Below are positions 13,969 to 43,779 of a stretch of 64,000 nt of DNA, one piece after another. A program made the translations under genes and the position numbers. The notes beneath the pieces were generated by a model, which was not told the DNA's origin, searched no databases, and saw only the letters and a program-made list of their open reading frames with translations. This DNA is from Corythucha ciliata (lineage: Eukaryota; Arthropoda; Insecta; Hemiptera; Tingidae): assembly GCA_038030265.1 (NCBI GenBank), contig CM075942.1, forward strand, positions 70,374,926 through 70,438,925, read 5' to 3'. Position 1 is the stretch's first letter, and every line of letters starts with the position of its first letter.

Positions 13969-16900
13969 ATGGCTTTGAAAAAAGTTAAGGGCAACCTGGA
14001 GAGGATATTCGACAAGAATTTAACGGATTTGGTTCGTGGAATTCGGAACAATAAAGACAATGAGGTGAGTAAACATATATGCAAATAACAATTTCCTAAC
14101 GCATTGGACAACACTTTATGTTTGTTAACGTTTCTTTTCGTACTAGTTATTTTAATTATACCTATATTACGGCCCTCGTAACTTCTCCGAGCGTACATTG
14201 GGTGAACAGGTGTTACTTGTTGGCAACGTAAACAAACCGATTTCCCCAGGAAACGCTTCACCAATATTTGTTGTGAGCGAAGGCAGTCCATAGCTCAATC
14301 GTAGAGACACGCAGACCGCTGTGCTGTACCCCACCAATCAATGTTGGAAGTGATGATGACCCTATTGGTGTGAGGTGATGGCGATAATCTAATTTTCGGA
14401 TAGTTTACGTTAATAGTTTGATAGTCTTGGTCATGGGCGCGCAGAGACCAAAATTCTGGGGTGGGCCATGCATAAGCCGGGTGACCCCCCCCCCCAATTT
14501 CGTCACAACATGGTTAAATATTATTCCATATTTTCTTGGTCTACTTTTCTGTTTCATCGAAGGAATAAGCACTGGCGGACCTACACGTATCGGGGCCCGG
14601 GGCGGAAATCTTCAAGAGGCCCCTAAAAGTCTCATCCTAAAAGTTGCATTCAGAATATAAACCTCTATGGCTTTTTCCTAATTTTAGCCTAGCTCTTTTC
14701 CTTATATTAGACAAATTACCGCTATTTCTACAACCTATCCTCCAAACAGCGCTTATTCCAAGTTTAAGCCGCGAATTTCTCCATTTTAGCCGCCAATAAG
14801 CAGTGGCGTAGGTAGGAATTTTCCTAGGGTGAGATCAGATTCGTTGTGGTGAGGGGAGGGGGTAATTTCAGCCATCATTCCACCCAGCCTGCACACTCTT
14901 GAATCTATTGGACATCTTTCTGGTCCCATCATAGCCTTGCCCGAGAATAAGATTACTATTAATCCCTGATTCATCCAGACATTCCAGAATTTTCTTTTCG
15001 ATAAATCGTTCCGTTATGGAATGAGTAGAGTAGAGGCTAGTCTGCTAGTCTCATGAAGTTCTCCCGGATGCAGATAGTGTTGAATCGATACCAGTAAATA
15101 GCGTAAAGTATCATTACTTTACAATCGATACCCAGTAGTTTTGGTATCGATACTTTTTTCGATACCAAGTACTATTTCGATACTTTGATTCGATACAGGG
15201 AAATGAGTACTTCAGGAATTGATACTTTTCATTCGATACTGAGTACGATTCGATACTTTTTAATCAATACCGAGTATTTTTTAATTTTAAATTTTTTAAA
15301 TTAATTTAAACACGTGAACTCCCGGCATCGGAAACGTACCGTTTGAAATGAGTACTTTAATTGGTATCGAATGGGTATTGATTAAAACTAGTACGATACT
15401 GAATCAATACCCATTCGATACCGAGTAAAAGTACTCATTTGAAACGATACCGAATCAATACCCTTTCGATACCGAGTAAAAGTACTCATTTGAAACGATA
15501 CCGAATCAATACCCATTCGATACCGAGTAAAAGTACTCATTTGAAACGATACCCATTCGATACCGAGTATTTACTTGTTTGAATCAATACCCATTTGATA
15601 CCGAGTAAAAGTACTCATTTGAATCAATACCCATTCGATACCGAGTATTTACTCGCTTGAATCAATACCCATTCGAGTACTTTTACTCGGTATCGAATGA
15701 GTATTGATTCAAATGAGTACTTTTACTCGGTATCGAATGGGTATTGATTCAAACAAGTAAATACTCGGTATCGAATAGGTATTGATTGAAATGAGTACTT
15801 TTACTCGGTATCGAATGCGTATTGATTCAAATGAGTAGATATTCGGTTTCGGGTATATTCATTCGGTATCGTAAAAGTATCGATTAAGTAAGAGAGTTAT
15901 AAGCTCGGTGCACACTATGCATTTTTCGTAGCATGATTGCTATTTATTTGGAGGTCGAAAGGAAATTTTTTAAAACCGGTAGGCAATCCTATTTCAAAAG
16001 TCGCATAGCGTGCATCGAGCTTAAGTAGTAATTGTGTTTCACTTAAAATGAATCTGTATTTGTATAAGGGAGTAGTGATTGACGACTCGATAAATCATTA
16101 GAGATGGTAGTGCTTTTGGCTTTTGTTGGTTGGTGGTAGAGGGGTTTTATTACAAGCTTGTTGAATCGATACCACTACGGTATCGATACTTTTGAATCAA
16201 TACGAAGTCCTTTTGGTATCGATACTTCTGTACCGATACCGAGTATATATCGATACTTTTTATACGATACTGTAAACAAGTTATATGAGTATTGATACTT
16301 TTCATTCGATACCAAGTACCATTCGATACTTCCCATTCGATACTTCAAATGAGTAAAGTATCGATACTTTGTTGGTATCGATTCAACACTAGATGCAGAT
16401 CGACGAAGTCGATGACACGAGTGCAAAATTAAACGCACACTTTTACCCAATTTAAGGGACAGTGGTGGCCACTCTATGATGTTGGGAAGGAAACCGCGTA
16501 CGTTGGTTAATTGAGCATATCACCACGGGACTCACACTTTCGGCTCAAATCGAAATATTCAGAAAACATGACCCTAAAACATCTCTCAGTTGGGCGATTT
16601 TTAGAGGAAACGGCTAAAATTTAGAAATGGATGAAACCGCGTATCGTGGGGTCACTCGCGGGCCTACACCTATCGGGGCCCAATCGCGGAAATCTCCAAG
16701 AGGCCTCCAAGTCTCTGTATGAACAAGACCATATAATTATAACTTAGCCTTTTCCTTATTTTAGCCACGAATTACCGCTTTTTCACCTTTTCTATCCGCC
16801 AATTAGCGCTTTATGACTAATTTAAGCCGAGAATTTATCAATTTTAAACATGAATGAGTGCTTTTTGTCAACTTTACCCGCAAATCAGCGCCTATTTTCT

Positions 16901-19900
16901 CAATGTTGGCCGCGTTTATCGTTCTTCTCAATTTCAGCCGCGGATTAGCAGTTTTGTCCCCTCTCCCATAACCATGAATTTGCGCATTTTCTCAACTTTA
17001 GCAGCAAAGTAGAGTTTCTTAATTTTCCACGAGTTTTGGAGCTTTCCTCTATTTTAGCAGGAAATTAGCGATTTTTTCCAATTTCTTAGCAGGGGATTAG
17101 CACTTTTCTCAGTTTTAGCTGAAAATTAGAGTTTTTAAAAAAAGTTTTCCTCAATATTAGCCGCGAAATAGAGGGCTTTTCCCAAATCAGGATTTTTTTG
17201 GTTCACCATATGCTATGCATGAGCGATTCTTCTCAGTTTCACCCGCGCATTAGCAGTTTTTTCCCCTCATTGCCATGAATTCGCGCTTTTTCTCAATTAT
17301 CTGCCTCAAAAGTTGCATTAGAAGCCGCGAATGGCGTATTTATTTAGTTTTGACGAAAATTAGAATGTTTCTCAATTTTAGCCGCAAATTAGCACTTTTC
17401 CTCAATATTAGCCCCACTTTCCTCAATATTAGCCGCGAAACCGAGGGCTTTTCACAAATTAGGATTTTTTTGGTTCTCCATTATGCTATGCGTGAGCGAT
17501 TTTTCTCAGTTTTACCCGCGCATTAGCAGTTTTTTCGTCGATTGCCATGAATTCGCACTTTTTCTCCATTTCTGCCTCAAAAGTTGCATTCAGAAGCCGC
17601 GAATGGCGTAGTTATTCAGTTTTGATGCAAATTAGAATGTTTCTCAATGTTCGCCGCGGGTTAGCACTTTTTATCAATTCAGGCCTAAAATAATTATTTA
17701 TTTTCTAAATAATACCTGCAAATTAGCGGGGTTTTCACATTTTAGCATCGTATTAGCAATTTTATGTTACTTTTAGGTATAGCTTATTGCTTCTTCTCAG
17801 TTCTAGCCCGTGAATCAGCGTTGTTTTTACTTATAACCGTGCATGAATGTGCGGTTTTTCTCAATTTTAGCCACAAAGTTGCCTTCAGATTAAGGCGCGT
17901 GAATTAAAAATTTCACCACACTTCATACGAAAATTAGTGATGTTCCTGAATTTTAGAAGTGAATTGGCGCTTTTTCTAAATTTTAGCTGCCGTAGCGTTT
18001 CCAACCAGTGCACTACCGACTTCTCTCAATGTTTGCCAAGAATTGGCGTTTTCCTCAATTTGAAGCTGCAAATAAGTCATTTTTTCTATTTGTTTAGCTG
18101 AGACTTAGCACTTTTCCCCAATTTGAACTAAAAATTAGCGTTTTTCTCAAATTTAGCCGCGTTAATTAGTGATTTTTTTCAATTTTAGCCACGAATTAGT
18201 GACTTTATACATTTGCATCCGCGAATTAGCGTTTTTCCTCACCTATATCCGCCAATTCCAAATTAGAGATTTCACCCAATTTCAGCAGTGGAATAGCGTT
18301 TTACTCAAATTTTGCGACGATTTAGCATCTATTCCCTTTTTTATACGCGAAAGGGCGATTTTTCGCAATTTCAGTTGTGAATTTGCCATATTTGTCCAAT
18401 TTTAACTTGAAAGCGTATTTTTGTCAATAATATAGCGTGTTTTCTGAAATTCAACCTCGGGGTTGGCCCAAAAACAACACTTTTGCGTTGATTTCCACAA
18501 TTTATTCGTAGAATGGCTTCCATGCACCGCGAATCAGCGATTTTTCCTCAATTTTAGTTTGGAAGTTGCTTCGCGAGACCACGAATAAGCGCTTTTTCGA
18601 AGGTATAGACACGAATATCAGCGAATTTTTCAATTTTTGCCGCGTCAGCAAGTTGGCAAATTGCCGATTAGCACTTTACCGGTCTTTAAGAACCTAATGA
18701 AACTGGGGACACGGTGTATTTCCTCTTTTTAGCCGCGATTTTTCTTCAAGATGTCGTGAATTTTTTCAATTTGAGCCACCAGAATAGCGCTTACGGGTGC
18801 TCATTCGAATAATCGGCCCACAGTCGTTGCTGATATCACTTGCAACGTTATATTCTCCAGGTCCGATAAACAGGAATTTGTAGAAAGTAGCCAAATCGCT
18901 GTCCTACCGTCCGACCTATTCACATACCTACATCCATGGATAACCTAAAAATCCTCATTTTTACGTATTCAAGCTTTTCGGGCGCCCCCTCCCCCCCTGG
19001 CCCTTACCTCGGTACAGAAGCATGGACGCACGCGGACCTTTTCGGGCTGCTTGAAGTCGAGAAAATCAGCTAAACGTAACTTCAACGAGAAACGCTCATT
19101 TTTGGAGATTTTATGAGGCTCTTTAGATCGTTGGTACTAGTGCCCCTTCGTTCGCTTATTTGTAGCTCTGGGGAGGGGGGGGATCTATCCCCCATATCCC
19201 CCCTCCCGTACCTACGCCTCTGCGAATGAGTGCTTTTTGACGACTTTACCAGCAAATTAGCGCTTTTCGCCGCAATTTAGCCGCCGATAAACATAAACAA
19301 ACATATGCGCATCGAAGTACCTTTTTTATCCGTGAGTCAGCAATGTTTATTAACTTTCCTCGGGTTGGTGTTTTCCACAATTTTAGCTGCAAATTCGCGA
19401 TTTTTTCTAGCAGTGACCAGGAAATTGGCACTTTACTCAGTTTGAGCTGAAAATTATAGTTTTACTCAATATTACCGCAAAATAGCGTTTTTTTTTCGCT
19501 AAATGTTTACGACAAATTAGCATTTTTTTTGTTCACCATAATCGTACGCTTCGGAATTAGCGATTTTTTCTCAGTTTTAGCCGCGAATTTGCGGGTTTTT
19601 CACCCATTGCCATAAATTGGCGCTTTTTCTCAATTTTAGCCTCAAAAGTTGACCGAGGAAGCCGCGATTAGCGTATTTCAAATGTTTGACGCAAATTGAA
19701 AATTGTCTCAATTTTCGCCGTGAATTAGCGATTTTCCTCCATTTCAGCCGCGAATTAGCGCTTTTTCGTAATTTTAGCAGCGTTTCTAACCCGTGAATTA
19801 GTGAATTTTGTTCATTTTTAACCTCGAATTGGAGTTTTCCGATATTTTAAGTGCAAATTGGCAATTTTTCCATTTTTGGCAGCGTATTAGCATTTTTTTA

Positions 19901-22900
19901 AATTTCAATTCAGGCTGAGAATTAACCTTTCTATTATTTTTAGCCTGAATAATTTACTTATTTTCTCAATATTGGCCGCGAAATAGCGGGTTCTTTTCCA
20001 TTTTAGCACCGCATTAGCAGTTTTTTTAAATTTTTGCCATGGAATTTGCGTTTCTTCTCAGTTCTGGCGATGAATCAGTGTTTTATTTTACTTATAGCCA
20101 TGAATTTGCCGTTTTTCTCAATTTCGAGACCATGAATCAGCGCTTTTTCGCAGTTATAGTCACGAATATTAGCGAAATTTTCAATGTTTTGCCGTGTCAG
20201 CAAGTTGGAAATTGCCGATCAGCGCTTTACTGGGCTTAAGGACCTAACGAAACTGGGGGCACGGTGTATTTCCTCTTTTTGGCCGCGAATTTTCCTCAAG
20301 GTAGTGCGAATTTTCTCAATTTGAGCTACCCAGAATAGTTCTTTCGGGGGCTCAATCGAATATTCAGCCCACTTTCTTTACTGATATCAATTGCAACTTT
20401 ATATTCTCCAGGTCGGATACACTTGAAATTTGTAGAAAGTAGCCAAATCGCTGTTCAACCGTTCGACCTTTTCTCACATACACCTACGTCCATGGATAAC
20501 CTAAAAATCCTCATTTATCCGTATTTAAGCTTTTCGGGCGGCCCTATCTGATCCGGGGTGGTTCGCCCCCCCCCCCTCGCCCTTCCTCGGTAAGCTACTG
20601 CGTGGGGTGTGAAGTCCAAGGAAGCAGCTGGAATCACGCGGTCCTTTTCGGACTGCTGAAGTCGAGAAAATCTGCTAAAACTAACTTCAACGAGAAACAC
20701 TCATTTTCGGAGATTTTATGGTGTTCTTTAGAGCGTTGGTACTGTCCCTTCGTTCGTATACTTGTAGCTCTGGGGGGGGGGGGGAATCTAACCCCCTTAT
20801 CCCCGTCGTACCAGCGAATCTCGGCGTAAAACGCGTTCAAGCTGTCTTCGTTCTCGCGCCGGCTTCCGGCAGTTTACCCTATAGTTTTTTAACAACCCAT
20901 TGTATTAAGAGGAATGTGTTCTCCATATTTTAGCTATGTACAACATTCTCTTTCAGGCCAAATACATAGCTCAGTGCATAGAAGAAATAAAACAGGAGCT
21001 CAGGCAAGACAATATCGCTGTTAAAGCGACAGCCGTTGCCAAATTAACCTATGTAAGGTCACGCGTTAAGTTATTTTTGCCTACAGGAGTGACTAATTTC
21101 CCTTATTTGACATATATAGCTTCAAATGCTCGGTTATGACATGAGCTGGGCAGGATTCAATGTGATCGAAGTTATGTCGTCGCCTAAATTCACCTACAAG
21201 AGAATCGGGTATCTAGCGTCAAGTCAAAGCTTTCACGCTGACACTGAGGTATGTCTCTCATTCAGCCACTAATAATGTTCTGAAGTTTTAATTTGTTTGT
21301 CTCTTCACCAAAGTTACTTATGTTGACCACAAATATGGTTCGTAAAGATTTGAACAGCCAAAACCAGTATGACGCTGGTTTGGCGCTATCGGCGCTCTCA
21401 TGCTTCATTAGTTCGGACCTGGCGAGAGATTTAGCTAACGATATAATGACTTTGGTCTGTTTTCTACACAAACCTCCTTCAAATAGAATAACCGTGTCTA
21501 AATTTTGGCATCTCATCCTGTAGATGACATCAACAAAACCTTACCTGAGGAAGAAAGCGGTTCTTATGATGTACAAAGTGTTTTTGAGGTACCCGGAAGC
21601 TCTTCGACCGGCATTTCCTCGCCTGAAGGAAAAACTGGAAGATCCCGATTCCGGTTCGATCTCAAGTGTTCAACTCTAATCACGCTGTTGCTGTTCATAT
21701 TAACACATTTTTTTCGATTTTTAAGGCGTGCAATCGGCGGCCGTCAACGTAGTATGCGAACTCGCTAGAAAGAATCCTAAGAACTACCTAAGTTTAGCAC
21801 CAATTTTCTTTAAATTGATGACGACATCTTCAAATAATTGGATGTTAATTAAAATAATTAAATTGGTGAGTTTTTTAATATAGTTCTTACAAGCATTTAA
21901 TAGGTGTTGGTGGCGGTGGGGGGGGGGAATAAGAAAAGGAATTGCTCGCGGCATCCTGTTTCAGTTTGGCTCTATGACGTTTATCGAGCCTAGAATAGGT
22001 ACGCGTCTAACTCGTCCTCTAATTGATCTCATCTCAAGGTAAACTGAAATAAATAACGAGATTCCAACAGAGTCCTAAGGGAGCTAAGTATTCCGCCTGG
22101 AGCTTCTTCTTTCCCTTTGCAATATGTATTATGCTTTGGTTCGTATTTAAGTATTTAATCCCCCCCTCCCCCGCGGGCTGAGGCCAGTTTTTTTCTTCCT
22201 AAAAGTGTGTGATCAATGAAGATGCTATACACATGACGCAAAAATGTATATTAGATGTTGCGTTTCCCTTTTCTAATTTCAGTTTGGTGCGTTGACTCCC
22301 CTAGAGCCTAGACTCGGTAAGAAGCTTATTGAGCCACTCACGAATCTCATTCACAGGTAAAGGTGCACGAATTTTGAAAAAAAAAAAGCTAAGTCTTTAG
22401 CACTCCATCGAAGCTTTTCCTATATTTAATTATTTGTTATTAGGTCTTTATCCCTTTTCCATGTCCCAATAAATGTGTCGAATCAGTGCCTCATAATTTT
22501 AATTTCAGCACGTCGGCCATGTCACTACTTTACGAGTGCATTAATACTGTGATTGCCGGTAAGCATGAACGTAAAAAGCTCCCTGTTCCTATTTTCTTCA
22601 TTTGAAATTTTTTTGTGGTTTCAGTATTAATATCCATATCTTCCGGCATGCCGAACCACAGTGCTTCTATTCAATTATGCGTCCAAAAATTACGTATTCT
22701 CATCGAGGATTCCGATCAAAATTGTAGGTATTTAGGCTGGGACTTGGCTATTTTGAACATTAAAACCGGCTAAATTTGTTTATAATTGTTTTTTTTGTTT
22801 AAAGTGAAATATTTAGGCCTCTTAGCTATGTCAAAAATTTTAAAGACTCATCCAAAGTCCGTCCAGTCGCATAAAGACTTAATAATGCAATGCCTAGACG

Positions 22901-25900
22901 ACAAGGACGAGTCGATTCGACTCAGAGCATTAGATTTATTGTACGGAATGGTCTCTAAGAAGACTCTGATGGAAATTGTGAAGAAGTTAATGGTTCATAT
23001 GGACAAAGCGGAAGGGACTACCTACCGGGACGAGCTTCTTTCCAAAATCATCGACATTTGCTCTCAAAATAATTATCAGTTTATAACTAATTTTGAATGG
23101 TAAATTGATTGCGGTAGGATTTTCCGTCGTGTTTTATTAATTTTTTTTTTATTATATCGAAGGTATGTGAGCGTTCTAGTTGAGTTGACGAGAATGGAAG
23201 GGACTCAACACGGTAAACTTGTCGCTTCGCAAATGGTCGACGTTGCCGTACGAGTACAAGCCATTCGACCTTTCACCGTCTCTCAAATGTGCCTTCTGTT
23301 GGAAAACAGTCATCTTCTAGCGCAACCACCGGCTCGCATGGCCGATGTTTTATACGCGGCCGCTTGGATTTGCGGGGAATTTTCAAGGTGAGAGATTCAT
23401 TGGTTCCGAGTTTGTTTAGGGGTCAGGTGCTTAAATCTATAAATAAGACTGACTGAACCCAGATCACTTTGTGCTCGATTTAATGACGTGCTGTTGAGCG
23501 TCTAGCCCAGGGGCGTAGCGTGACATTTTGATGCCCCGAGCGGTGGTCATGGAGATGCCCCTCTCTCCGCACTATTAAAAAAAAAAACGCGAATATCTGG
23601 CGACTCGCCACAATCGGAAATCATCCATGGCTCAGGGTAGGGGAAAATGTCAGGGTTCTCGAGGAAATTTAGCAAGGAAGGATCATGTTCTATTTTAACT
23701 GCGGATAGATTCTCAAGCCGTATACAGCTTTTTCCGGAATAATTAGACCGTCGTGTCAGATTAACAGATTCTGGGCGTGGGAGTGTTTTTCATTGTCCTC
23801 GTGAACTAGATTTTCTTTATTTGAGCCAAATATGATGTACGATCAAAGATGGGGTGGGTGCAGGATGTTCCGGAGAGAACCAACTTCACGAGAATGGCTC
23901 TTCAAGAAACTGGTTTCGTGGGGTTTAACCGTTGAAAAAAAAAATATGTGTAAGAAATGTAATTGTCAGTGATGTAGGAGAAAATTGATAGTTTGACAGT
24001 TTTGAACGTCGACATCGACAGTTTCAAGGATGAAATCGGCTGTTTCCGGAGCGAAATTGACAGATTATACGATGAAATTAACAGTTTCAAGGACAAAATT
24101 GACAGTTACGAGGACGAAATTGACAGTTTCCAGGACAAAATTGATAGTTATTAGGACAAAATGCAACAGGCTCAATGTCAACTTTTTCACTGGAATAATT
24201 AGTTTCCAGGACACTACGAAAAAATAAAATTGACGGTACTGTAGGAGAGAATTGATAGTTTGACAGTTTTGAACGTCGAAATCGACAGTTTCAAGGGTGA
24301 AATCGGCTGTCGAAATTAACAGTTTATACGACAAAATTGACAGCTTCCAGAACTAAATTGACCGTTTATAGGACAAAATTGATAGTTCCCAAGACGAAAT
24401 TGACTGTTTCTCGAACGAAATAGACTGTTTCCCGGAAAAATGTCATAGATAGTTTCCGGGGAGAAATTGACAGTTTTGAACGACAACATTTACAGTTTTG
24501 AATGACGAAATTTACAGTTTTGAATGACGAAGTTGACATTTTCCGCTTGAAATTGAGAGTTTCAAGGAAATTAAAGTTGCAGGGAAAACTAGAGAAACGC
24601 GCGAAAAATTAAGGAAACTTTTATTAGACGAAAATAAACTTTTTTTTTTTTTTAAACTTGGTAACAACCAAAAAAACAATTCTCAAGGTGAAGCTCATAT
24701 GGCTCCCGCTAACTTTCTTCAAAACAAGTAACTCTCCAACACTCCCTAAGTAGTCCAGTAAACGAGTGTTCAAAAAGGTGGTCTAGAGGGAATGAGCGAA
24801 AGCAGAAAGTTTGACTCCAAAACCATGTTTGGACTAGTTAGGAGGTAAACATACTAAAAGTCCCCACCCCTAGGAGCTGAGTCCGAGTGGGGGGAGCACA
24901 AAGAAGGTACCATTTTTCGGATTTTCACTGATATCTCGAAAACAGAGCATCGTAGGCAAAACTTTTGTAATAACCAATTAAGGCTGACAAAAATATCAGA
25001 AACTTTTGTCATATGCATGTTTCACTAATTCCTAACCGTTCTCGAAATACGTGCCCCGCAAAAGTAAAAATGTCCGAAAAAAATATTTTTATTCCACGTT
25101 TTCCGTTGAACATTCTTCTATATCGTCTAAATCGTTTATCCTAGGAGGAAGCCCTCGGGGAGGAAGTTTCAGACGATTTAATTATCTTTGGAAATTGTGA
25201 ATACATAAACAAATTTATATTGAACAGGTCAAAAGTTATACGAGTTTTAAAAATGTTAGCCAATTTCAACTTTTTTGGTTGAACTATTGTGAAACTTCAA
25301 GAATGGTATACATTTTCTCAATAGGCAAGTTGAGAGACAGGTATGGAAAGGAAAACACCTGTAGTGTGAATAAAAACTGCTTTACCAGCTCAGGAATATG
25401 GGAAACAGGTGCTTTTTAAGCTGGTACGGTGCAAAAAAGATGGATACCTCCCGCAACACCCATCGCCTCTAATGCTTCTTAAAGTCTGCGTCGATCATAA
25501 AACCTGGCATTTCATCCCTTCTACATACCGAGGGAGTAACCCAGGAGCACAGTTTCCGGCCTCAAATTTCGTTTGGAAACGCATTGAGCCATAAAACTGG
25601 GGATGGGATCAGAATAGCAACAACCACCTTGTTCCCATTCAAACCAAGCAACCAGCTCCACTGCACCGGTGTACTATACCCTTAATCTTATATTATTTCG
25701 TCGGTGTATTACCAACCGCAGCACTGGAAAATTTGGATGCAGGAAGGCATCGATGCAATGCTTCAACATCTGCGAAGCTGCTACGGGAGCTGCGTCAATA
25801 GGAGCCACTTGACAATCGGAAAATGATGATGATGACACGGATACAGTTTTTGTGCCGTCGCCTCAAGAGACTAGTGACCTGGACGAACAACGGGCTTAAA

Positions 25901-28900
25901 TCTTCCTCCCGTCATAAGTGGAGTGGTTTATTATTTGAGTTAATCTGATATGTTCAGACTTTCATATACCTACTAAATTTTTGTTCAGCGTGAGCAGAAC
26001 ATAAATATACGTACATGATACGGTGAAAGACCGAGGGCTGGTAAATCTTAGCATTCACCAGTGAATCCTAGCGTTCACCAGCGACGTTCGTTAAAGTTCA
26101 AATGATTCTTGAAATTTGGACTTAGGCCCGGGCCGAACACATGGGATTGAAGCTCTGTTCTCTAAGCTGAGCTTAGGAGCTTATACTCTAATCAGAATTT
26201 TTGGTATTTTGAAAACAAAATCGTTTAAATCCAACGCAACCCTTAAACAGACATTGTCGAGACCTAGCCCTCCTTATACCACTAGAAATACAAGAATGGT
26301 AAAATTCTGAAATTCCTGGAATATAGTAAGATCATCGGACTATTACTAGACAGCTTTGGTACGTAATCCCCGTGCGGCGTTGGTCCACTGTTCGACTACG
26401 CAAGCTCTCCCACATCATTGAAATCCCCCCTCCACCAATCAACTTTCCCACGGCTCATCACCCCTTGAAATGTACTGATAAAAGGCAGAGAAGTACATTG
26501 CGTGTATGAGGGGGGGGGGGCAGTACATGAAACTACACTGTACATGTTGATTGTCTACAGTTGAAGGCTTCAGGAGAGAAATGTCTATAGAAAATAATGG
26601 ATTGGAAACAGTTCAACCAAAAAAGTTGAAATTGGCAAACATTTTTAAAACTCGTATATATTTTGACCTGTTCAATATAAATTTGTTTATGTATTCACAA
26701 TTTCCAAAGATAATTAAATCCTCTAAAACTTCCTTCCCGAGGGCTTCCTCCTAGGATAAACGGTTTAGACGATATAGGAGAATGTTCAACGGAAAACGTG
26801 GAATAAAAATATGTAGAAAAAAGCACAGAAACATTGGGTAAAATCCGAACTACGATCACTATACATTAAAAAAGAACAGATTAACAAAACGCTATACTCA
26901 CTGCACCTCCAATTGACACAATACATGCCAATCGAGACATTAACAGAATTCACAACAAACACCAAAACTAGGGCACACACGGACATAAAGAAGAAGTACG
27001 ACATACTAAAAAAGAAACTAAATTCACTCATTCCACCTAGAGACACAACAAAATACACCGATCACATTTTTTACCCTAGGCTTGTCAACCTCACAAAAAC
27101 GGCACTAAACAAAGACGAAACCGATTTATTAGAAAAAGGTTTCAAACATAACATACAAAGGAACAACATTAGGAAAGACACAGAACAAAACATAATCGAC
27201 ACCGAACACGCAGTTTCCTTCGCAGTTTCCAGAAGAGGAACAAGAACATAGCAGACACATCATATCAGATATCATCAAGGACAACATCAGAACATACAAT
27301 CATTCAAACAATGACGACACTAAAATATTGAACAAACTTCGTAGGAAACTGGGGAGTGACACAATCATAACGAAAGCAGATAAAGGACACACGACAGTAC
27401 TAATGGACAAACAACAATACATTCAAAAAACGGACGAATTCATAACAAAATCAGGGGCCAGCAAATTACACGCAGACCCAACAGAACAGTTTCAGGAACA
27501 CATCCGTAAAGTCATTAAAGATTCACACAGTCTAATACACCCAGCACAATCAAAATTCTACATTAACATGAACCCTAAAGCACCTACACTAAACTCACAA
27601 ACGAAACTCCACAAGCCAGATGTACCGATCCGTCCTGTGGTCAACTACACTACCGCACCAGCTTACAAGTTAGCAAAATTCACCGCACAACAATTAAAAC
27701 AAAAAATACAGTACAATCACACTTACGCTGTTAAAAATTCACTCGAACTAACCAACAAACTACAAAATGTACACATAAACGAAAATTCTGTCCTTGTGTC
27801 GTTTGATATCAAGGACTTGTACACATCCATACCAGTCAATCAAACACTCACAATAGTCAAAGACATGTTACATACAAATTGCGGCAACACTACAGCCAAC
27901 ACATTATTCAACATGACATTGGCCACTGTGAAACAGAACTACTTTAAATTCAACAACAATGTTTATCGACAGTTGGACGGACTAGGAATGGGAAACCCCA
28001 CTTCTGGAGTCTTGGCCGAGACCTTTCTAAACCACTTAGAAAGTAAGTTCGTCCAACAACTCTACGACGACTTTAACATAACATTTTACGCACGATATGT
28101 AGACGACGTTATTTGCATACTGTCTCAGGACAACTCAACACAAATACTACAATTCCTCAATACTATACACCCCAAATTAACATTTACACTTGAAACAGAA
28201 CAAAACAACTCTATTAACTTCCTTGACATCACTGTGACGAAAGATATAACCTCAGGTAACCTACAATTTAAAATTTACAGAAAACCCACTTCATCCGACT
28301 CAGTTATTCACGCCACATCTAACCATCCTACCCAACACAAACTATCAGCATTTAGGCACATGATACACCGCTTACACACCATACCAATGACTCAGCAGGA
28401 TCAGACAGACGAACTCAACATAATCTACCAGATCGCCACAAATAACGGATACAGTAAAACAACAATAGATAGACTCAGATCACGAAGACAGAACAATCAC
28501 AATAACGAACCAACAAACAGTACCGACATAAGAAGATGGACCTCATTCACGTACACAGGTAAAGAGATTTACCGAATCACAAACTTCTTCAAAAATAAGG
28601 GACTTAACATAGCAATCAGCACCAACAACACGATAAAAAATACTCTCAACACTAAAATAGACAAAAACAACAAATATGACCAAAACGGGGTTTACAAACT
28701 AACATGTACTTGCAACGAGGTTTACATAGGACAAACAGGTAGGAAACTTAGAGAACGATACAAAGAACACATCGCATCGTATAACAAAAACAAAGACGAC
28801 TCAAATTTCGCACACCACCTTTCACAACAAAAACATAAACCTCAACCCATAACACAAGCCATGACCTTAATACACTCACAAAACAAGGGTAGGAAACTTA

Positions 28901-31900
28901 ACATACTCGAAAATTTAGAAATATACAAACAAAGGACATTCGGGGGGAACATAATCAACGAACAACTCAACACAACGTCAGATACCATCTTCACACCACT
29001 AAAGGATTTATACCCGACAAAAAGAAAGGCACATACCATCATCTTACCCGAAGCAAAAAGACACAAAAGTAACACGCACACCACACACAGCATATCACCA
29101 CAAAACTCAACACAGCCACCAATCAAGAAACAGAAAATAACGGACTTTTTTGTCAAAACAACACCTGCAAAGTGAAGGGAACAGGGAAAACCCAGGGGGG
29201 GGAAGGGTATATAAGGGGACACACACACGACGGTAACTCAGTTTTCAGTAGACGCTCCAACACTGAAGATGCCGAACAGGCGAAACCGGTCTGTCTTGGA
29301 CACACCTCAACAAGGTATGACTGACAACGTAGGCAACTACGGCTACTTATCTAATTTGTACCTTGGACTTAGTTTAAGACCATATAGGCTTGTTTGAAGC
29401 TTCCACACCCTCCCAGAGCCATCGTCGTACCCTTCCGGCTGACTCACGAACACCTTTTTCTTGAGAAAGCCATATAAAAATGCTGTCTTCACATCAAATT
29501 GGAGCATGTGTGTTGGGTCCTGAGGTGGTGGACTGGATATAAATTTTCAACGAAATTGGTTTTATTACTCAAAGGTGTTTTACAACGAATTATCCGAAAG
29601 CGTTACGAGATAAGATAAAAGAAAAATGGATTCCGTTTTTCGCTCGTTTTCCCGCTAGTCAAGGGAGGCTGGCGTCACCATACTCTCCCCGCCATGAAGC
29701 GCAGTCTTCATCATCAATTGGAAGAGGGCAGAGACTTCGTATATTCCGTTTGAAGAAGCCGGAGGGCGTTCGTACTGTGACTACTCTAACGTGACCATCC
29801 GGTCCTGTGTGAAGGTCTGTCACACGTCCGAGACTCCATGAAAGCGGAGGAGATTGGTCGTTTTTAAGGAGTACATCTTTTTGCAAACTGTCTGATGATT
29901 GTTTCCACTTTGATCGGCGCTGAAGCTCTTGCAGATATTCAGATGACCACCTTTGCCAGAAGTGCTGGACAATTTGTTGTACGTATTGCCAGCGCGATAG
30001 TCGGTTCATCGGCAGATTCCTCAAACCTTGATCTGGGGTCTCGAGTAGACTATTAACGATGTGGAAATGGGCAGGGGTAAGGGCGGATAGATCGTCAGGG
30101 CTGGATGGTAGGGGTGTCAAAGGTCGGGAGTTGACTCAGCCTTCAATTTGAGTTAGCACCGTACAAAGTTCAGAAAACGTCAATATTTTTGGACCAATAA
30201 TTCGCTTGAATAAGTCGTTTGATAAGTTTAACACTCGATTCCCAAAGCCCTCCAAAATTCGGTGATTTAGGAGGAATAAATTTCCTACTAGTTAAACTAT
30301 TGACGATAGCATCATTATGAGGTTTTGTATTTAACAATGAATATAATTTTCTTAACTCGTTATTTGCACCTACAAAGTTAGTGCCGTTGTCAGAATACAT
30401 CACTATAGGGTTTCCTCTTCGTGACGTGAATCGCCGCAGTGCGGCTAAGAAGGAGTTGGTTGACAAATCCTCGACAAGTTCAAGATGAATGGCTTTAGTT
30501 GATAGGCAAACAAACAATGAAATGTAGGCCTTTGATGTCGGTGCGTTCCTTCTTTGCAATGAACGAATAGTGATAGGACCAGCGTAGTCAACACCACAGT
30601 GGTAAAAAGGACGAGATGGCTCTACTCTAGCCTCTGGAAGTTGTCCCATTATTTGGCTGGCAACCTTGGGCTCTGCTCGAAAACATTTAACGCATCCGTG
30701 AAAAACCTTGCGACATAAGTTCCTTCCATTAATCGGCCAATATTGTTGACGCATGGTCGCTAGCAGGCCTTGTGGTCCGAGGTGAGCATTGTCTTCATGA
30801 ATTTGTCTTGCCAAAAGGAAAGTGATTTTATTCACACCGTTGTTTCCTCCATGAGTCAAAAGAATAGGCTGCTTCTTGTCATATGTTAATCTGGAGGCTT
30901 GTAGTCTGCCACCGACTCTGATGAGGTTTTGACGATCAAGGAAAGGACTTAGATTCGAAATACGACTTGAGGTTTTGACACCCTTTCCACTCCGTAAGCT
31001 AGAGTATTCTTCTGGAAACATCAGTTTTTGGCAAATTATCAAAAGAGCCGTTTTTGCTTCCTGGAATTCTTTCGAATCGATGGGACCGATCTCCGTAAAT
31101 CCAATTTTTTGACCCTTGACCCTAGCAAATCTGTAGCAATAAGCTATTATTCGCACGATTTTGTTAAAAGACGAGATCCTGGTTGCTATTGAAGAAACGA
31201 AGTCGAGATGGGATTCTTCGAAATTAACCACTAAAGTCTCAGTTCTTCTCGAACTGACGTCAGGAAGGTTCGATTCCTTGACAAGGTCGCAGTCCCCATG
31301 TTGATGTGTCGATTGTTCGTTGACTAACCAATGTGGTCCTTTCCACCACAAATCATTTTTATTGATCTGGTTGGCGAAAAGTCCTCGTGAAATGAGGTCC
31401 GCAGGATTGTGAGTGGATTCAACGTACTTCCATTGTTCAGGTTTTGATAATCCTTGAATTTTTGACACACGATTAGCTACAAATGTAGTCCATTTGGTGG
31501 GGCATCCACTGATCCAGGACAGCACGGCTTTCGAATCGGTCCACAGGGTGATAGAATCCAGGTTCAAGTTTTTTAGAGACGGAAGAATTTGCTGGACAAG
31601 CTCAACAAGCAGTAGAGCTGCACACAGCTCGAGGCGTGGCAATGACTGAACCTTGATTGGAGTGACCCGCGATTTGGAAGTGATCAAGTTTACGTGGGTC
31701 CCGAATTCGAAGATACACGCATGCTCCGAAGGCGACTGTGGATGCGTCGGCAAAGCCATGAAGTGGCACTTGAGGCTGAAACGCAACGAGGAACTCTTAG
31801 GCTGCTCAGGCACGCCATGGAGGCACAAAGTGTGACCCATTCCTTTAAGAAGCTTTTAGGTAAAGGATCGTCCCATCCATAGCCTTTGTGCCAAAGACCT

Positions 31901-34900
31901 TGCAATAGTATTTTTGCTTTGGTGATCACGGGACCGAGTAAACCGAGAGGATCGAAAAGCTTGGCGATTGTCGACAGGACTGTTCTTTTTGTTATACTGC
32001 TCTCTGGTACGACAGGAAGGATGGTTTCATCGTCGGCGAAAGAGAAGCAGTCCTCTAAAGGTAACCACAATAGACCCAAAGTTCGAACATGGGGTTCTTT
32101 GTCGAAAATAACTGGAATTTTCATTTCTCGATCTGGTTCAGGGACTGAATTGAGAAATTCTAAAGAGTTGGAGGTCCATTTTCGAATATGGAATCCGCCG
32201 AGAGCCAGATGCTCGGTTACAAGGTCCTTGAGTAGAATTGATTCCTCGGTTGTATCGGCGCCAGTGACAAGGTCATCCATGTAGAAGTCATTCTGGATGA
32301 TTTGCGAGGTGATTGGATGGTTATGGTCTAATGCCAGTTGTTTGAGCGTTCGAGTGGCAAGCCATGAGGCGCAACTAGTACCATAACTGACGGTTTGAAG
32401 TTTGAATAGTTTTATAGGATCGCCAAATAATTATTTGGAGCGAATGCTGGGTTGTATTGATTAGAATTTGACGAAACATTTTTTCCAAGTCCCCACAAAC
32501 AAGCACAGTATAGGCTCTTGCTCTGATCAGGTGATTGAAAAGTGTGGCTTGGATCGTTGGTCCTACGGCGAGTATGTCATTCAAAGCGTAACCTGACGAA
32601 GTTTTGGAAGAGAAGTCGAAAACGACTCGAAGCTTTGTGCTTGAAGAGCTTTCCTTAAACACGGGATGATGGGGAACAAAATGGACCTTTTCATCCTCCT
32701 TTAACTGTAAAGGGTTTACATCAGTCATGTGCCCCAAGGAAATGTACTCATCGATGAAGTTTTTGTATTTTATTTTAGGTTGGGATCTCTTTCCAAACGA
32801 GCTTCCAGGGAGATATCATTACTTTGTCCAAGCAGACCTAGGCTGTTTTTTAATGGCATTTCGACTACGTATCTCCCGTCGGAGCGTCTTTGTGTTGTCG
32901 CTTGGTAGAAGGCTTCACAACGTTGCTCGTCAGCCGAATAAATTTCGCATGTTTCGAAGCTATCGATTTCCCAAAATTTGCGTATATTTTGATCGATCGA
33001 TTCGAGAGTAGCATTGGAAACAAGACAACAGTGAGTAGTTTGAACTGGAGCGGGCCTTCCAGTAATGATCCAACCGAGTTTGGTTTCTCTTAAAATCATG
33101 CTGAATCCGGGAATTTCTACTGATCCGCTCACGATCAGGTCCCAAAAAATATCGGCTCCGAGAAGAAGGTCGATTTCGGTTTTATCGAACAGATCAGGGT
33201 CGGCTAAAACGACGTGTGAGGGAATTTTGAATTTGCTTGGGTCGAATTGGACAACCGGCGCGTAGTCAGTAATTTTTGGAACTATCAGCAAGTCGAGAGT
33301 GCGCGAAAACGAGGAACATTTGGATGAGATCCTGGCCTTTGTGAAATGACTGATAGGGATGATCGTGCTGTTGAAGCCAGATGCATTCATGAACGTTTTG
33401 TACTTTTTTAATTGAAGCTTGTCACAAAGCGAAGCGGTCAGGTAACTAGACTGGCTACCACTGTCAAGTAGAGCACGGCATGACGTTCGTTTTCCATTTA
33501 TGCCATGAATGAACACCTTAGCTGTGGCTAACAATGCCCGATTTGGATGAGATAATGACGAAGTTAATGACAATGACTGAGTTTCGTTCGAAATGTTGCA
33601 CGATTCAGCTGCTTGAGGTGATGTATTGGAGGTTTCACCAGCAGATTTTTCAGACTGATCTCGATGGAGCAGAGTGTGATGACGTTTGTTGCAAAATCGG
33701 CATAAAGATGCCCGACAATCGGAGACTTTGTGATTATTGCGTAAACAATTTATGCACCAACCGTTGCTTTTAACAGTCGAAAACCTGTCGGCAACAGATA
33801 ACGACAAGAATTTTTTGCAAATATTTGTGTGGTGCGATTCGTGACATAAACTACAAGTTCCAGTTTTAGCCCCTTTGTTTCCGGATACAAGGCATCGAGA
33901 TGTGTTTTTGGTGTCCTTATCATATTTAAGAGGCTTGGTTTTAGGGATTGGTGACGTATGTGAATTTATGGCATCGAGGACTCTAAAGCGATTTTCCAAA
34001 AAATCGACGAGAAGCATCAAACTTGGGAGCGTTTTAGTCGGCGTGATTTTCTGCCGTTCTCTAAATGTAGAAATGTCGAGTTTGCTTGAGATGAGGTGGA
34101 CTAACATTGCGTCCCATGCATCCGTTGGCTGTCCGAGAGCCTTCAAAGATCGAGTGTGCTTCTGCGCACTGTCGAAAAGGCTGCGAAGTGCAGAGGATGA
34201 CTCCTTTTCTATTTTGGGGAGGTCGAATAGACTAGCTATGTGTTTCTGCACGCCTCGAATCGGGTTCTTCTCCTTCGGGATATCTTTCCTTCAGGAGGTT
34301 CAATGCGATGGATTAGTTTTCCGACGTCAGATCGAACGACTCCACAAGACTGTAAGCTTCTCCACGCAATGCAATTTTTAGGTATTTCAATTTAGACGCG
34401 TCGTGGTAGTTGTTGTTGTCATGGACGATGTCTTTAAAAATGTTAAAGAACGAGGTCCACTCGTCGAAGGCTCCGGAAAAGACCGGAATTTGGATCGGTG
34501 GTAGGCGAAGGTCATTGTCGGGTGTGCTGCGAGGTACGTCTCTTTTTCCGGCATTGACTTTAGTGGTACTTTCAAGTATGTCCTCAGCCGTACCTATGGC
34601 TTGAAAATATCTCTCTTCGAACGAGTCTCTCACGCCGAATTCGGCGCCAAGATCTACGAAGGTATCGTCAATGCCTTCAATTAGCAATTCGTTCGATTCG
34701 AATTTGTCCCAAATGTCTTTGGCTTTAGAGAGGCGAGCTTTAAGTACTCCTAATTGTAGCTTGGTTAAATCTACGTCAGCAAGATACTGCTCGAACCTAC
34801 TTAAACGCTCGAGAATTGATAATCTTTTCTTTAAAAGGATTTCGACTTCTTTATTAATCTTTTTTTGGGGCATGATAAGCATGTATAAACAAGAAAATAT

Positions 34901-37900
34901 GTAGAAAAAGGCGCTTAATGGCTATAATGGTGCTAACCCAACGAAAAGGTGTTTGATTTCAATAAAAACGAACGAAAGGAAAACGAGATGAAGGAGATGA
35001 AAAGGGGAGTGTATTTACCATCGGCGACGATTTGAAAGTGAGACGATTGAGATTTCCGATGTTCAGGCCACGAAGTATCCGACCCGGAGGACCAAATTTG
35101 TTGGGTCCTGAGGTGGTGGACTGTATATAAATTTTCAACGAAATTTGTTTTATTACTCAAAGGTGTTTTACAACGAATTATCCGAAAGCGTTACGAGATA
35201 AGATAAAAGAAAAATGGATTCCGTTTTTCGCTCGTTTTCCCGCTAGTCAAGGGCGGCTGGCGTCACCAATGTGCAAGTCTTCATTAGCAGCAACACTGAT
35301 GACTGTCCTCACAGTTTTAAGTCTCGCCACAGGATTAAACTGTTCATCATAGTCGATTCCCTTCTGATGAGAAAATCCTCTTGCTACGAGACGACCTTTA
35401 AGGCGCTGGACTGTCCCATCTGAGTTTAATTTTTCACGAAGAACCCATCGGCTTCCGATTATTCTGGCTCCCGCAGGCGGCTTTTCAAGCTCGAAGACTT
35501 CGTTTTTCACTAGGGATTCCATTTCTTCATCCATAGCTTCACGCCAGGGGGCTGATGACAGGACTTCTTGGACACTCATCGATTCTTCAGCGACACAGAC
35601 AAATTCTTTGAGGTGGTCTGGTGGCTTTACTTGCCTTCCAGAACGAGTCACAACCCTGTTCTCGCTTGTGCTTTCAGATTCCATTCCACCGGATGCAAAA
35701 AGTTGAGTTATGCTCAACATCGAGGCTGCACGAAGCGTTTTCTGAGTGAGCTGATTCCATTTTGGTCGCATCGGTGGGCTCATTCTCCACTGTTTCCTCT
35801 GGCGCTGTCCCAATATCGATTTCTCCCTCTGAATCGTTGAGGGTGTCGTCCCTGTTGAATGTTAGAGGTATCTGAGCGTATTCCGAAGGTCTCAAAGAGC
35901 ATTTTTGTGTAACGTTATTTTCAGTTGAAAAAACAGTCGTTTCATTGTCAGGTTCAAAAATCACGTCCGCTGACGAGATAACGTGTCCATCGACGTAAAC
36001 CTGAAAACCATCTCGTTATCCGCAGTACCCAACTAGAATGCCTTTCTGAGCTTTCGCTGACCACTTGGTTCTTCTTGGCTTGGGTACGTGGACGTAACAG
36101 GTTGTGCCAAATGCCCTGAAATGTTGGTTGGGCAATTGACATTTTCCTGACCACAACTGTATGGGCGCTTTGCCAGGAACTGACGTCGGTCCAGTTCGGT
36201 TGATTATGTGGCAAGATGTGTTCATGGCTTTTGCCCATAATCGCTTCGGCAAATTCATTGCGTGAATCATAGTACGGGCGCTTTCGACGAGAGTTCTCAT
36301 CTCTCTTTCGATCCCACTAACTTGTTCTGGGGTGTACGGCATCACTGTTCTCATTGTGATTCCGGGTTCGCTCTGAAATGATAAAACCTTTTGTAGAATA
36401 AAGTCCCATTCACACGATGCATTTTTTGAAGGAGGATTACATGCAGGGTGAAAAAAAACATATGATCCCGGGTAGTGACCGGATGGTTTTTTTAAACAGG
36501 CAGACAATCCTCCTTCAAAAAATGCATCGTGTGCATGGGGCTTAAGGCTTTAATTGACAAAATAAACCGTGTGAGAAACGAACTGAACTTTTGAAACAAT
36601 TGTAAACAAAAAGTCATAAGATTGGAGGGTATTTAAATAACATAAAGTGGAATTGATAATTATAACATTCTTCCGTCCAAGAGAGAAGTCTTCATCCAGA
36701 GCTTCGGTATTAAATAATATAGTCCGAGAGATAAGCCGGCAGTTTTCTCGGTCTTGTACTTCTTCTTATTTCGGGTATAGTGGGAGGAGAAGATGGTATG
36801 TTTTGAATTAGTTCAGGAGAGTCTCTTTCGTCCGTGATAGCGTTTTCTAACGAGAGGTCGAGAGGTGAACAGGCGTCGATAATTGGTGGAGACGCATCAA
36901 GGGAGTCCAAATTATCTTGAACGGGGATGGGTGTGATGTCTCTAGTGGATACCACCGTTACTCTTCCGTCTTTCAATTCGATCTGAGCGTACTCAGTGTT
37001 TCCTTCGAGGAGCGTAGCTTCTTCCACCAGCGGGTCGAATTTCGAAGCTCTTACGTGCTTACGTACAAATACTGGACCTGGGGTTGTCAACCAATTCGGT
37101 GTTGATGTCCCGTTCCCCGTTCGCCTGGCAAACTTGAACATCCGGTCATGAGGTGTTTCATTTGTGGCCGTGCAGAGCAATTAACGTATGGAGTGAAGGG
37201 CTGAGTCGAGGACGTCTTCCCAATGAGTGACCGGCAGAGGTTGGCTTTTTAGAGCCAGTTGGACAGATTTCCAAATTATACCGTTGTACCGTTCAGCTTG
37301 ACCATTACCTCTTGGGTTGTAAGGAGTTGTTTTACTACTTGCAATCCCATGGGAACTAAGAAAAGACCGCAGTTCGTGAGACATGAAAGATGATCCCTGA
37401 TCAGAATGAATGTACGCAGGAGTTCCGAACATATGAAAAATGGACTCTAAAGCTCTTTCAACTGTAGCTGTTGTCATGTCTGAACAAGGAATAGCGAAAG
37501 GGAATCTGGAATATTCATCAATAATTGTCAAGATGTAACGATTTCGAGATTTCAAAGGTAAAGGGCCCTTAAAATCCATATTGAGTCTTTCCATCGGGGA
37601 TGTCGCTTTTATCAACGTTCCTTGATGCTTGAAAAATTTTGGCTTGATTTCCGAACAAATTCTACAATTATTTACAATTTGACGAACTTCTTCAACAGAG
37701 AAGGGTTAATTTTTACTCTTTACCCAATGGTGAAAACGTGTTATACCTGGATGACACAAAGTTTCGTGGTATTTTCTCAGATTGTCCTTCGAATTAGACA
37801 CATTGGCGCAAATCCTTGAAAAAGCATCAGCGGCTACATTTTCTTTACCGGGCCTGTACACAATGTCGTATGAATAACACGAAAGCTCTAGCCTCCAGCG

Positions 37901-40900
37901 CATCATTTTTTCATTTTTTATTTTACTAGTATGATCCTTCGAAAAAATAAATGATACGGAACGCTGATCAGTTATGAGTTGAAACTGTCGACCCATTAAA
38001 TAGTGGCGCCATTTCCGTACCGCCTCAATTATAGCACACGCTTCCTTTTCGATTGCCGCATGCCGTTGTTCAGTTTTTGTCAACATTCTAGAGTAAAATG
38101 CGACTGGGAGACCATGCTGAGATAAGGTTGCAGCAAGGGCGAAAGATGAAGCGTCCGTTTCGACGGTGAATGGGGAATCGGGGTCTACTGCAGTAATTGC
38201 TGCGTCAGTGATGACTTCTTGGTATTTTCAAATGCCTGAAGTGATTCTTGATCGAGGGGAAATTTGCATACGACTAGAGGACGAACTTTTTCTGAAAATT
38301 TAGGTATGAATTTAGAGTAATGTGAGAACAGACCCATAACTCTTTTCAAGGATGACGCGTTAGTCGGTGGTTTCAAGTGACGTAGAGGGTCTAGACGGTC
38401 TGGGTCGGGTTTAATGGTTTTGTTTTTAATTATGTAGCCGAGGAGGTTGATTTCTGGCCGGGCGAAGGAACTTTTTTCCGTGTTTATTGTTAAATTGTAC
38501 TTCTTGACAACCTCCATGAATTTTTTGAGATTTTTGTCATGGTCGTTTTTGTCTGAGCCGCAAATTGTGACATCGTCTAGGTATGCAAACGTCGCTGTCA
38601 AGTTTTCCTTGCGGATTATTTCATCTACGACCCTTTGAAAGGCTGCCACGCCATTGGTGACCCCAAAAGGAATTCGCCGGAACTGGAACAGCTGTCCGTC
38701 CGCCTCGAAAGCAGTGTATATCCTGTCAGCATAATTAATGGGTATTTGATGATATGCACTTCGTAGATCAACAGTGCTGAAAATGTTGAATTGTGCTACC
38801 TTGTTTACTACGTCCTCAATGTTTGGTAGAGGGTACGCGTCTAACGTAGTGTACCTGTTTACTGTGAGGGAATAATCAATCACCATACGCCGTTTGTGAT
38901 TTTCGTTTGATGTCACAAGCACTTGAGCCCGCCATGGAGACTTACTGGGCTCTATCACACCCTCTTGAAGAAGACGCTTGATTTCCTCTTTGATGAAAGA
39001 ATTATCGGATGGATTATGCCTTCTTGATTTGACGCTAATTGGTCTTCAGTCTGGAGTCAAATGTGAAAAGAGAGAAGCTGGGGGTACTTTCGCTTCTGCT
39101 AATGCACATATATTTAAAGGAGCATTAGGGCCTCCAAATGACAATTTTAGACTCTCGTGTTGTTGTAAGAGATCATGGCCTAAGAGCACATCGCAGCATA
39201 GATCCCTGAGTACGTAAAGTTTGACTGTAGTGTGTTTATGGCCAGGCAATTTTAAAGTAACAAAGCACTGACCATTGACTGACGAATGAAATGACGTTGA
39301 AGCCATTGTAATTTGTTCCCGACAACGTTGAATTTTCAAATTTAAAGTTCGCGTTAGTGCTTCACTAATGAAACTTATAGAACTACCAGTATCGATCAAG
39401 GCGGATGCTTTGAAGCCGTTTAACAGTACAGTGATGGTAGCCTTTTTTAGACTTGAGGGAGTATAGGAGCTTGCAACAACCACAGATACTTGTTTAACGT
39501 GACCCTTACGATTAAAAGTTGGATTCGATCGACATACCTTAGAGAAATACCCCAATTTATTACAGTTTCCGCATGTGGCGTCCTTGGCTGGACATTGATC
39601 TCTTCTATGATACTGTCGCCCACAAAAAAAGCATGATTTAAAATCGCTAGATTTTTTCGAAGAAACAGAAGCATTCAAATGGTCATTTTCGGGAATTTCC
39701 TGACCAGAATCGAGGTTTGGAACGGACGTGGCGTTCACAGAATAAGAATTACTGTAACCTAACGAGTGTTGTTGAGCTAGTTCTAAGGCTCGCGCCTGAT
39801 CAATTGCTTCGGCCAAATTTAGGGAAGACGATTCGAGTAATCTTAATCTTATTTGACTGGAACTTAGTCCTCTAATAAAAGCGTCCCTGATAAAGTCGGT
39901 CCAGTTTTGTTCTGCCGTCACAGCTTTAAATTTACATCGATTGGCCAAAATATTTAAAGCTTCCACGTACCTTTCAATATTTTCTCCGGGCTGCTGCTGT
40001 CTCGTCTGGAGCTCATGCCGAGCAAATATTTCGTTTATCGGTTTGACGTAAAGATTTTTAAGAACCGTTATTGCGTCTGTGTACGTTCCACATCCGTGTA
40101 TATATTGATAAACAGTTGGAGAGACCAAGTTGTGTAAAATTCTCAACTTTTGTTCATCCGAGGATTGAATAGACGCGACAAGATTAAGGAAAGTCCGGTG
40201 CCAGTGTTCCCATTCGACTGCTGCCGTTGGCGAAGTAGGGTCGAGATTTAATTTTTCAGGCTGGAGAAGTCGTTCCATGCTGGCTGGTGCTGGTGTTCAT
40301 TAAATTTTGTCAATTAAATTGAAATGATAAAACCTTTTGTAGAATAAGGCTTTAATTGACAAAATAAACCGTGTGAGAAACGAACTGAACTTTTAAAACA
40401 ATTGTAAACAAAAAGTCATATAGTAGGGGAGCCCACGATGCTAAATGGGGATTTACTCGAGCGTCGTAGAGACCTATTGGGTTGCAAAACTTAGATGATA
40501 AAAAGATAAAATTGTTATATGATGCACACCTTTTCATCGGTGGGGGGAGCGGCTATAGACTTTCAAAAATGTAAAAAAAAACTGTTGTATGGACATTCTC
40601 GAGCGCGTCAGATATTTACAGCATCAATTGTCTCCGTATTTTTAATGAAGTATGCATGTTAATCTGACAGTTTGCATGGTGGGGGTGGTCGTACGTAAGG
40701 ATTGAAAATGAAAAAAAATTAATCGAGCGCGTCAGATTTTCTAAGGAAATGTTAAGTGAACCTAAAATAAGCTCTCATTCAATAATCTGACGATTTGGAG
40801 GTGACGCAAACTCGTGGCCCTTATCAAAATGTGCAAAAAAAATCGTCATTTTGAAATACTCGAGCGCGTCAGATTAAGATATATTTGCTTCATACTGACG

Positions 40901-43735: not shown

Positions 43736-43779
<44 letters not shown>

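Follow-up and report, generated by a model that had tools for sequence, protein, structure and literature searches.

Alternative versions of exon 7 in the AP-3 delta gene of Corythucha ciliata and their probable counterparts in flies, mosquitoes and mantis shrimp

Mutually exclusive exons that are homologous to each other are well known, with Dscam1, Mhc and 14-3-3zeta among the examples. Lysosomes and pigment granules receive cargo sorted by the AP-3 complex, whose delta subunit is, to our knowledge, usually regarded as a single invariant core component. The same protein in Drosophila, the product of garnet, is on record with two versions of one 24-residue block, in which M9PHJ5 departs from isoform B and Drosophila isoforms X2 depart from X1. 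Likewise, the AP-3 delta-1 model of Diaphorina citri (P0001) contains two versions of this block, FGALTPLEPRLGKKLIEPLTNLIH in place and, in addition, FGAFTLVEPRLGRKLSQPLIELIL out of place at residue 435. The same model repeats a C-terminal stretch, and the misplaced block and the repeat are apparently an assembly or modelling error.

Such exons are described in the Kassiopeia account (PMC3923563) as sharing length, phase and homology and as obeying a frame logic. The pair presented here, exons 7a and 7b of AP-3 delta in Corythucha ciliata, resembles them in these respects, but differs from other mutually exclusive exons in being a cluster of two, in lying within the trunk of a vesicle-coat adaptor and in that its regulation is putative. 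For Dscam1, competing intronic pairings are reported in PMC8042237. The candidate pairings of the docking-selector type described below belong to the C. ciliata sequence.

Host gene and anatomy of the exon pair

The window, that is, the whole stretch of 64 kb that was analysed, belongs to a 71.5-Mb contig of an assembly of 400.9 Mb in 57 contigs, and contains the AP-3 delta gene (Table 1). The exons up to 44404 were placed by hand, the last modelled piece (44332-44404) having an arbitrary end, while the parts beyond, up to 54416, are represented by tblastn pieces only. Translation of the hand-placed exons gave a protein that aligned with residues 1-638 of the solved AP-3 delta 9rtx_d at 1078 bits, with shared numbering to about residue 470. 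With 7a in place, the Adaptin_N family was matched at 390.6 bits, and the trunk was accompanied by the hinge and ear pieces by which orthology to AP-3 delta was judged. The modelled protein was 94.6% identical to D. citri AP-3 delta over 368 residues, and stick insects and ants were equally close (94-95%). The donors of exons 4 and 5 are weak, and a site a few bases downstream could replace that of exon 5. A 173-residue trunk query against the species' own 400.9-Mb assembly matched the AP-3 delta gene only, and the 695-base exon 7a/7b cluster matched only itself, so no second copy was found elsewhere in the assembly.

Intron 11 of the gene is about 20 kb long and carries several retroelements. 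A long element on the plus strand (26800-29180) has a 615-residue frame that matched no Pfam family, and we take it, by eye, to resemble a Penelope-like retroelement. On the minus strand, a BEL/Pao-type retrotransposon (29500-35250; Peptidase_A17, Integrase_H2C2, DUF1759 and DUF1758) has ends near 29510 and 35100 that, by eye, resemble each other, and is adjoined by an RVT_2 piece (35247-35813). A further minus-strand retroelement stretch, in which domains of reverse transcriptase and of aspartyl protease are present, occupies 38185-40278. Runs of at least seven G or C bases are frequent throughout the 64-kb window (14 of G and 11 of C). Elsewhere in the assembly, a 56-Mb contig holds a near-complete bacterial 16S rRNA gene (positions 784894-786418, 1480 bits), of which a 41-base stretch is identical in four bacterial records, three of them from Cardinium endosymbionts. 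This gene is either an insertion of symbiont DNA or the product of a mis-joined assembly.

Exons 7a and 7b are 74 nt long each and lie 244 nt apart. Both are entered in phase 0 and left in phase 2, with TTTCAG before and GTAAA after them. The encoded peptides, FGSMTFIEPRIGTRLTRPLIDLIS for 7a and FGALTPLEPRLGKKLIEPLTNLIH for 7b, are identical at 12 of 24 residues (BLOSUM62 score 65), and the nucleotides at 44 of 74, with 15/24, 17/24 and 10/24 identities at the three codon positions. The initial annotation had described two open blocks of this size, spacing and phase with usable splice sites and about 12 shared residues, and its coordinates proved exact. It had also assigned one block to the canonical adaptin trunk; this is borne out by 7b, all 24 residues of which are identical to those of solved AP-3 delta chains. 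When 7a and 7b are joined, the frame meets a stop at codon 273, and when neither is used, at codon 256, so the expected breakage of the frame by both or neither was recovered. With 7a alone or 7b alone, it stays open through all 639 modelled codons. Equal length, matching phases and splice-site pattern, homology and frame breakage were all found, and the earlier suggestion of mutually exclusive exons is supported by each of these sequence tests as well as by 7a-like blocks that occupy the corresponding site in dipteran proteins and in that of a mantis shrimp.

Table 1. Coordinates of the AP-3 delta gene and of the features around exons 7a and 7b (positions in the window).
Feature	Position	Strand	Description
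AP-3 complex subunit delta (AP3D1/garnet orthologue)	13969..54416	+	start codon at 13969, stop at 54414-54416
Exon 6, shared	21726..21865	+	ends in phase 0 (after IKIIKL)
G-rich tract, intron 6	21913..21932	+	may pair with 22155-22174, looping out 7a (weak)
7a acceptor core, TTTCAG/TTT	21959..21967	+	can form 9 Watson-Crick pairs, or 12 counting G-U, with the flank of the 7a donor
Exon 7a, alternative version	21965..22038	+	FGSMTFIEPRIGTRLTRPLIDLIS + 2 nt; frame, splice sites, related blocks elsewhere
7a donor flank, AAACTGAAAT	22041..22050	+	complementary to both acceptors; candidate pairing element
C-rich tract, 7a-7b intron	22155..22174	+	partner of the 21913-21932 tract (weak)
7b acceptor core, ATTTCAG/TTT	22276..22285	+	can form 10 Watson-Crick pairs, or 11 counting G-U, with the flank of the 7a donor
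Exon 7b, canonical version	22283..22356	+	FGALTPLEPRLGKKLIEPLTNLIH + 2 nt; same peptide as in solved AP-3 delta
Exon 8, shared	22509..22558	+	completes the split codon (before STSAMSLLYEC)

The match of 7a to 7b is not a product of chance, as three controls demonstrate. The best 24-residue stretch in six frames of 60 simulated 64-kb sequences scored at most 41, as against 65 for 7a. Among the 67 stop-free AG-[74]-GT blocks on the plus strand of the window, 7a was second only to 7b itself (124), and the next best block scored 17. Moreover, none of the 13 other modelled exons up to 44404 had a similar block of nearly its own size (differing by 6 nt at most) inside 6 kb, the best score being 15.

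Related blocks in other species and the age of exon 7a

A search with the 7a block and eight residues on each side returned 378 proteins from 403 candidates, and a second search, started from the corresponding block in the fly Condylostylus, returned 657 proteins from 678 candidates. As the best 120 of the 378 and the best 120 of the 657 were used, the counts of blocks given here are not frequencies. The odd D. citri block, used as a query, found only itself (one match, four candidates).

Among the matches listed, 30 of 152 distinct AP-3 delta proteins have a diverged block in place and 122 have a canonical or near-canonical one (at least 21/24), D. citri P0001 being among the latter. The diverged blocks listed come from the mantis shrimp Oratosquilla and from 29 dipteran proteins, comprising 19 of Drosophila type (including Lucilia, Haematobia and Eurosta), Condylostylus, Pseudolycoriella and eight mosquitoes. 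Of these 30 listed records, 22 are named isoform X2 or X3, and the remaining eight are D. melanogaster M9PHJ5 and seven single models (six from Anopheles and that of Pseudolycoriella). Isoform names of the X1/X2 kind are usually based on RNA-seq. A 7a-like block was absent among the listed ants, aphids, stick insects, springtails, mite, spiders and Chironomus, where unrecorded exons are possible.

The comparison of isoforms covered 16 same-species record pairs from 15 species. All 14 pairs of equal length differ at exactly 12 residues, every one of them inside the block. The pairs of unequal length, D. melanogaster P0007/P0060, which differ in length by one residue, and D. busckii P0006/P0065, first differ in the block and also differ elsewhere. 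Since the alternative version occurs in fly, mosquito and mantis-shrimp proteins, the pair looks like a genuine switch of some antiquity and not like a peculiarity of one genome.

Five of the 12 residues by which 7a departs from 7b (S3, I7, T16, I20 and S24) are the forms found in Drosophila, Anopheles and Condylostylus. Under independent change, with positions fixed, five shared derived residues arose in 0.014-0.092% of 50,000 draws. Derived residues shared with 7a numbered three in the mantis shrimp (p 0.025), three in Pseudolycoriella (p 0.017) and one in D. citri (p 0.54). I20 is present in 7a and in the six other alternative versions compared, and none of the canonical blocks listed has it. 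Between 7a and the alternative block of D. melanogaster, 14 of 24 residues are shared, five of them derived; the fly block differs in having A2 and A10.

These comparisons bear on whether 7a arose by a tandem duplication specific to its own lineage, independently of the fly exon. Its likeness to the fly and mosquito forms (14-15/24) is little above that to the canonical block (12/24), the only derived residue shared with D. citri is a single one, and many groups among the matches listed have canonical blocks only, all of which would fit such an origin. Against it stand the five derived residues that 7a has in common with the fly and mosquito forms (p at most 0.001) and the divergence of the two exons at home. 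Third codon positions are identical at only 10 of 24 sites, and no long shared stretch was found between the introns flanking 7a and 7b, so a recent duplication is ruled out. We therefore consider an independent duplication improbable. A common origin of 7a and the fly alternative exon is likely from the residues they share, and 7a is best read as the counterpart, in C. ciliata, of an old exon pair.

Another reading would make 7a a poison exon or one in decay, a duplicate included only through splicing errors and serving no protein in C. ciliata. In favour of this, 7a alters residues that are constant in the listed canonical forms, for example P6, and its acceptor scores below that of 7b. However, 7a is open, its splice sites are usable and its substitutions are of a conservative kind that neutral decay seldom leaves. 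When 7b was randomly substituted to 30 differences, a score of 65 was reached in 0.085% of 20,000 runs, and an open frame with at least 12 identities was retained in 2.0%, on the assumption of a 7b-like ancestor for 7a and of change on the 7a side alone. The derived residues shared with the dipteran 7a-like forms likewise argue against decay, which we hold to be very improbable. From these features we infer that 7a is used in C. ciliata.

Splice sites and candidate pairings

According to a splice-site matrix built from the other introns of AP-3 delta, only about a dozen, the 7b acceptor scores 11.9 and the 7a acceptor 6.4. By the same matrix, 0.25% of plus-strand AGs score as high as the former and 3.7% as high as the latter, and the donors of 7a and 7b are alike (5.6 and 5.0). 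As the 7b acceptor is the stronger and the donors are similar, 7b is likely the default exon.

The flank of the 7a donor is complementary to the cores of both acceptors, and these two are the longest Watson-Crick matches among all 196 donor-acceptor combinations in the gene as modelled, the others having at most 7 pairs. Since both acceptors have the same core, the two pairings are not independent of each other. At least 10 pairs occurred in 10 of 7968 GT..CAG pairs that were 100-500 nt apart (1500 sampled GTs). Among the 3541 GTs in the window, three match the 7b acceptor so well, four match the 7a acceptor at 9 pairs or more, and one does both. Of the 239 GTAA sites in the window, the single one that matches the 7b acceptor is the 7a donor, as this donor is itself a GTAA site.

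Folding gave a less distinct picture. A local hairpin in which both 7a splice sites are paired had a z of -1.14, with 25 of 200 shuffles as good, and a neighbouring stretch was less stable than its shuffles (z +1.78). No extra stability was found for the fold of the whole exon cluster (z -0.09, 7 of 20 shuffles as good), and overall RNA stability was dropped as support for a structure. Because the hairpin is only slightly more stable than its shuffles, the cluster is average and G/C tracts are frequent, control by pairing is advanced as a hypothesis only. Pairing of the donor flank would be a candidate mechanism, new here, of which the complementarity is suggestive.

A different pairing, compatible with the mutually exclusive use of 7a and 7b, would bring the G-rich tract in intron 6 together with its C-rich partner in the 7a-7b intron and loop out 7a in the docking-selector style of Dscam1. 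The 20-nt arms are 85% complementary, the minimum-energy fold and the centroid fold each show them paired, and the duplex energy of the two introns is in the best 2.3% of pairs with the same spacing. On the other side, the total fold is no better than shuffles, and since runs of this kind are common in the window, the loop was kept as a weak rival only and appears unlikely.

Effect on the protein and meaning of the exon choice

The swapped block comprises delta residues 245-268, or 246-269 in the fly 7a isoform (P0007). In a model of the latter it forms, at low confidence, the end of a helix (236-252) and a second helix (254-268). This model, based on 36 aligned proteins, has a mean pLDDT of 59.3, with 70, 61 and 49 in three ten-residue bins over the block, and was therefore used for helix positions only. 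The swap of a helix foreseen in the initial annotation was about right in that most of one helix is replaced, but, by this low-confidence model, the block also takes in the end of the preceding helix.

The contact residues of delta mutated in PMC13178560 are 77, 110 and 111 (ARF1 site 1), 157, 159, 163 and 187 (ARF1 site 2), 313, 314 and 316 (mu3), and 342, 371, 378, 379 and 386 (beta3). In the chain, the block follows ARF1 site 2 and precedes the mu3 contact, and every delta residue for which section 10 of the paper gives a mutation falls outside it, which leaves the suggested alteration of partner binding without direct support. A tuned or reshaped solenoid, an effect on the sigma3 side or a changed contact with an unmapped partner would be likelier than the loss of mapped ARF1 or lattice contacts.

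With their anatomy, their frame logic and the likeness to recorded isoforms observed directly, 7a and 7b are very probably homologous mutually exclusive exons of AP-3 delta, the counterpart of the choice in flies and probably of that in mosquitoes and mantis shrimp. Exon 6 would normally be joined to 7b, giving the canonical trunk, and in some setting to 7a, so that the last part of one HEAT-type helix and the greater part of the following one would be replaced. Products with both exons or neither would presumably be cleared by nonsense-mediated decay. More speculatively, the 7a donor flank could pair with the 7a acceptor and hide 7a or, alternatively, pair with the 7b acceptor and block the frame-breaking 7a-7b join.

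The history of the pair may be longer still. An insect/malacostracan ancestral duplication would imply an age of some 500 million years. We tentatively envisage, at somewhat less than even chances, one duplication in the common ancestor of insects and malacostracans, after which a two-state trunk was kept with 7b almost unchanged, 7a came to tune curvature or cargo in a cell-specific manner, and, in C. ciliata, pairing of the 7a flank came to select between them.

Hatje and Kollmar 2013 may include the fly exon pair. Among the papers listed in a literature search, judged by title and abstract opening, no study of an AP-3 delta exon pair was found. The words 'garnet' and 'AP-3' are absent from the main texts of the exon-pair papers PMC3923563, PMC3303723 and PMC6071210. 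The initial annotation knew of no report of such a pair; this holds for the papers listed, but the alternative version itself is already public in protein records of flies, mosquitoes and mantis shrimp. What C. ciliata adds is thus a new species record of a real, probably old exon pair, together with a testable idea about its regulation.

Drosophila, in which garnet provides an eye-colour readout and both versions are on record, would allow the trunk choice to be tested at once. If this choice is conserved across flies, mosquitoes, mantis shrimp and C. ciliata, arthropods would have two forms of the AP-3 coat.
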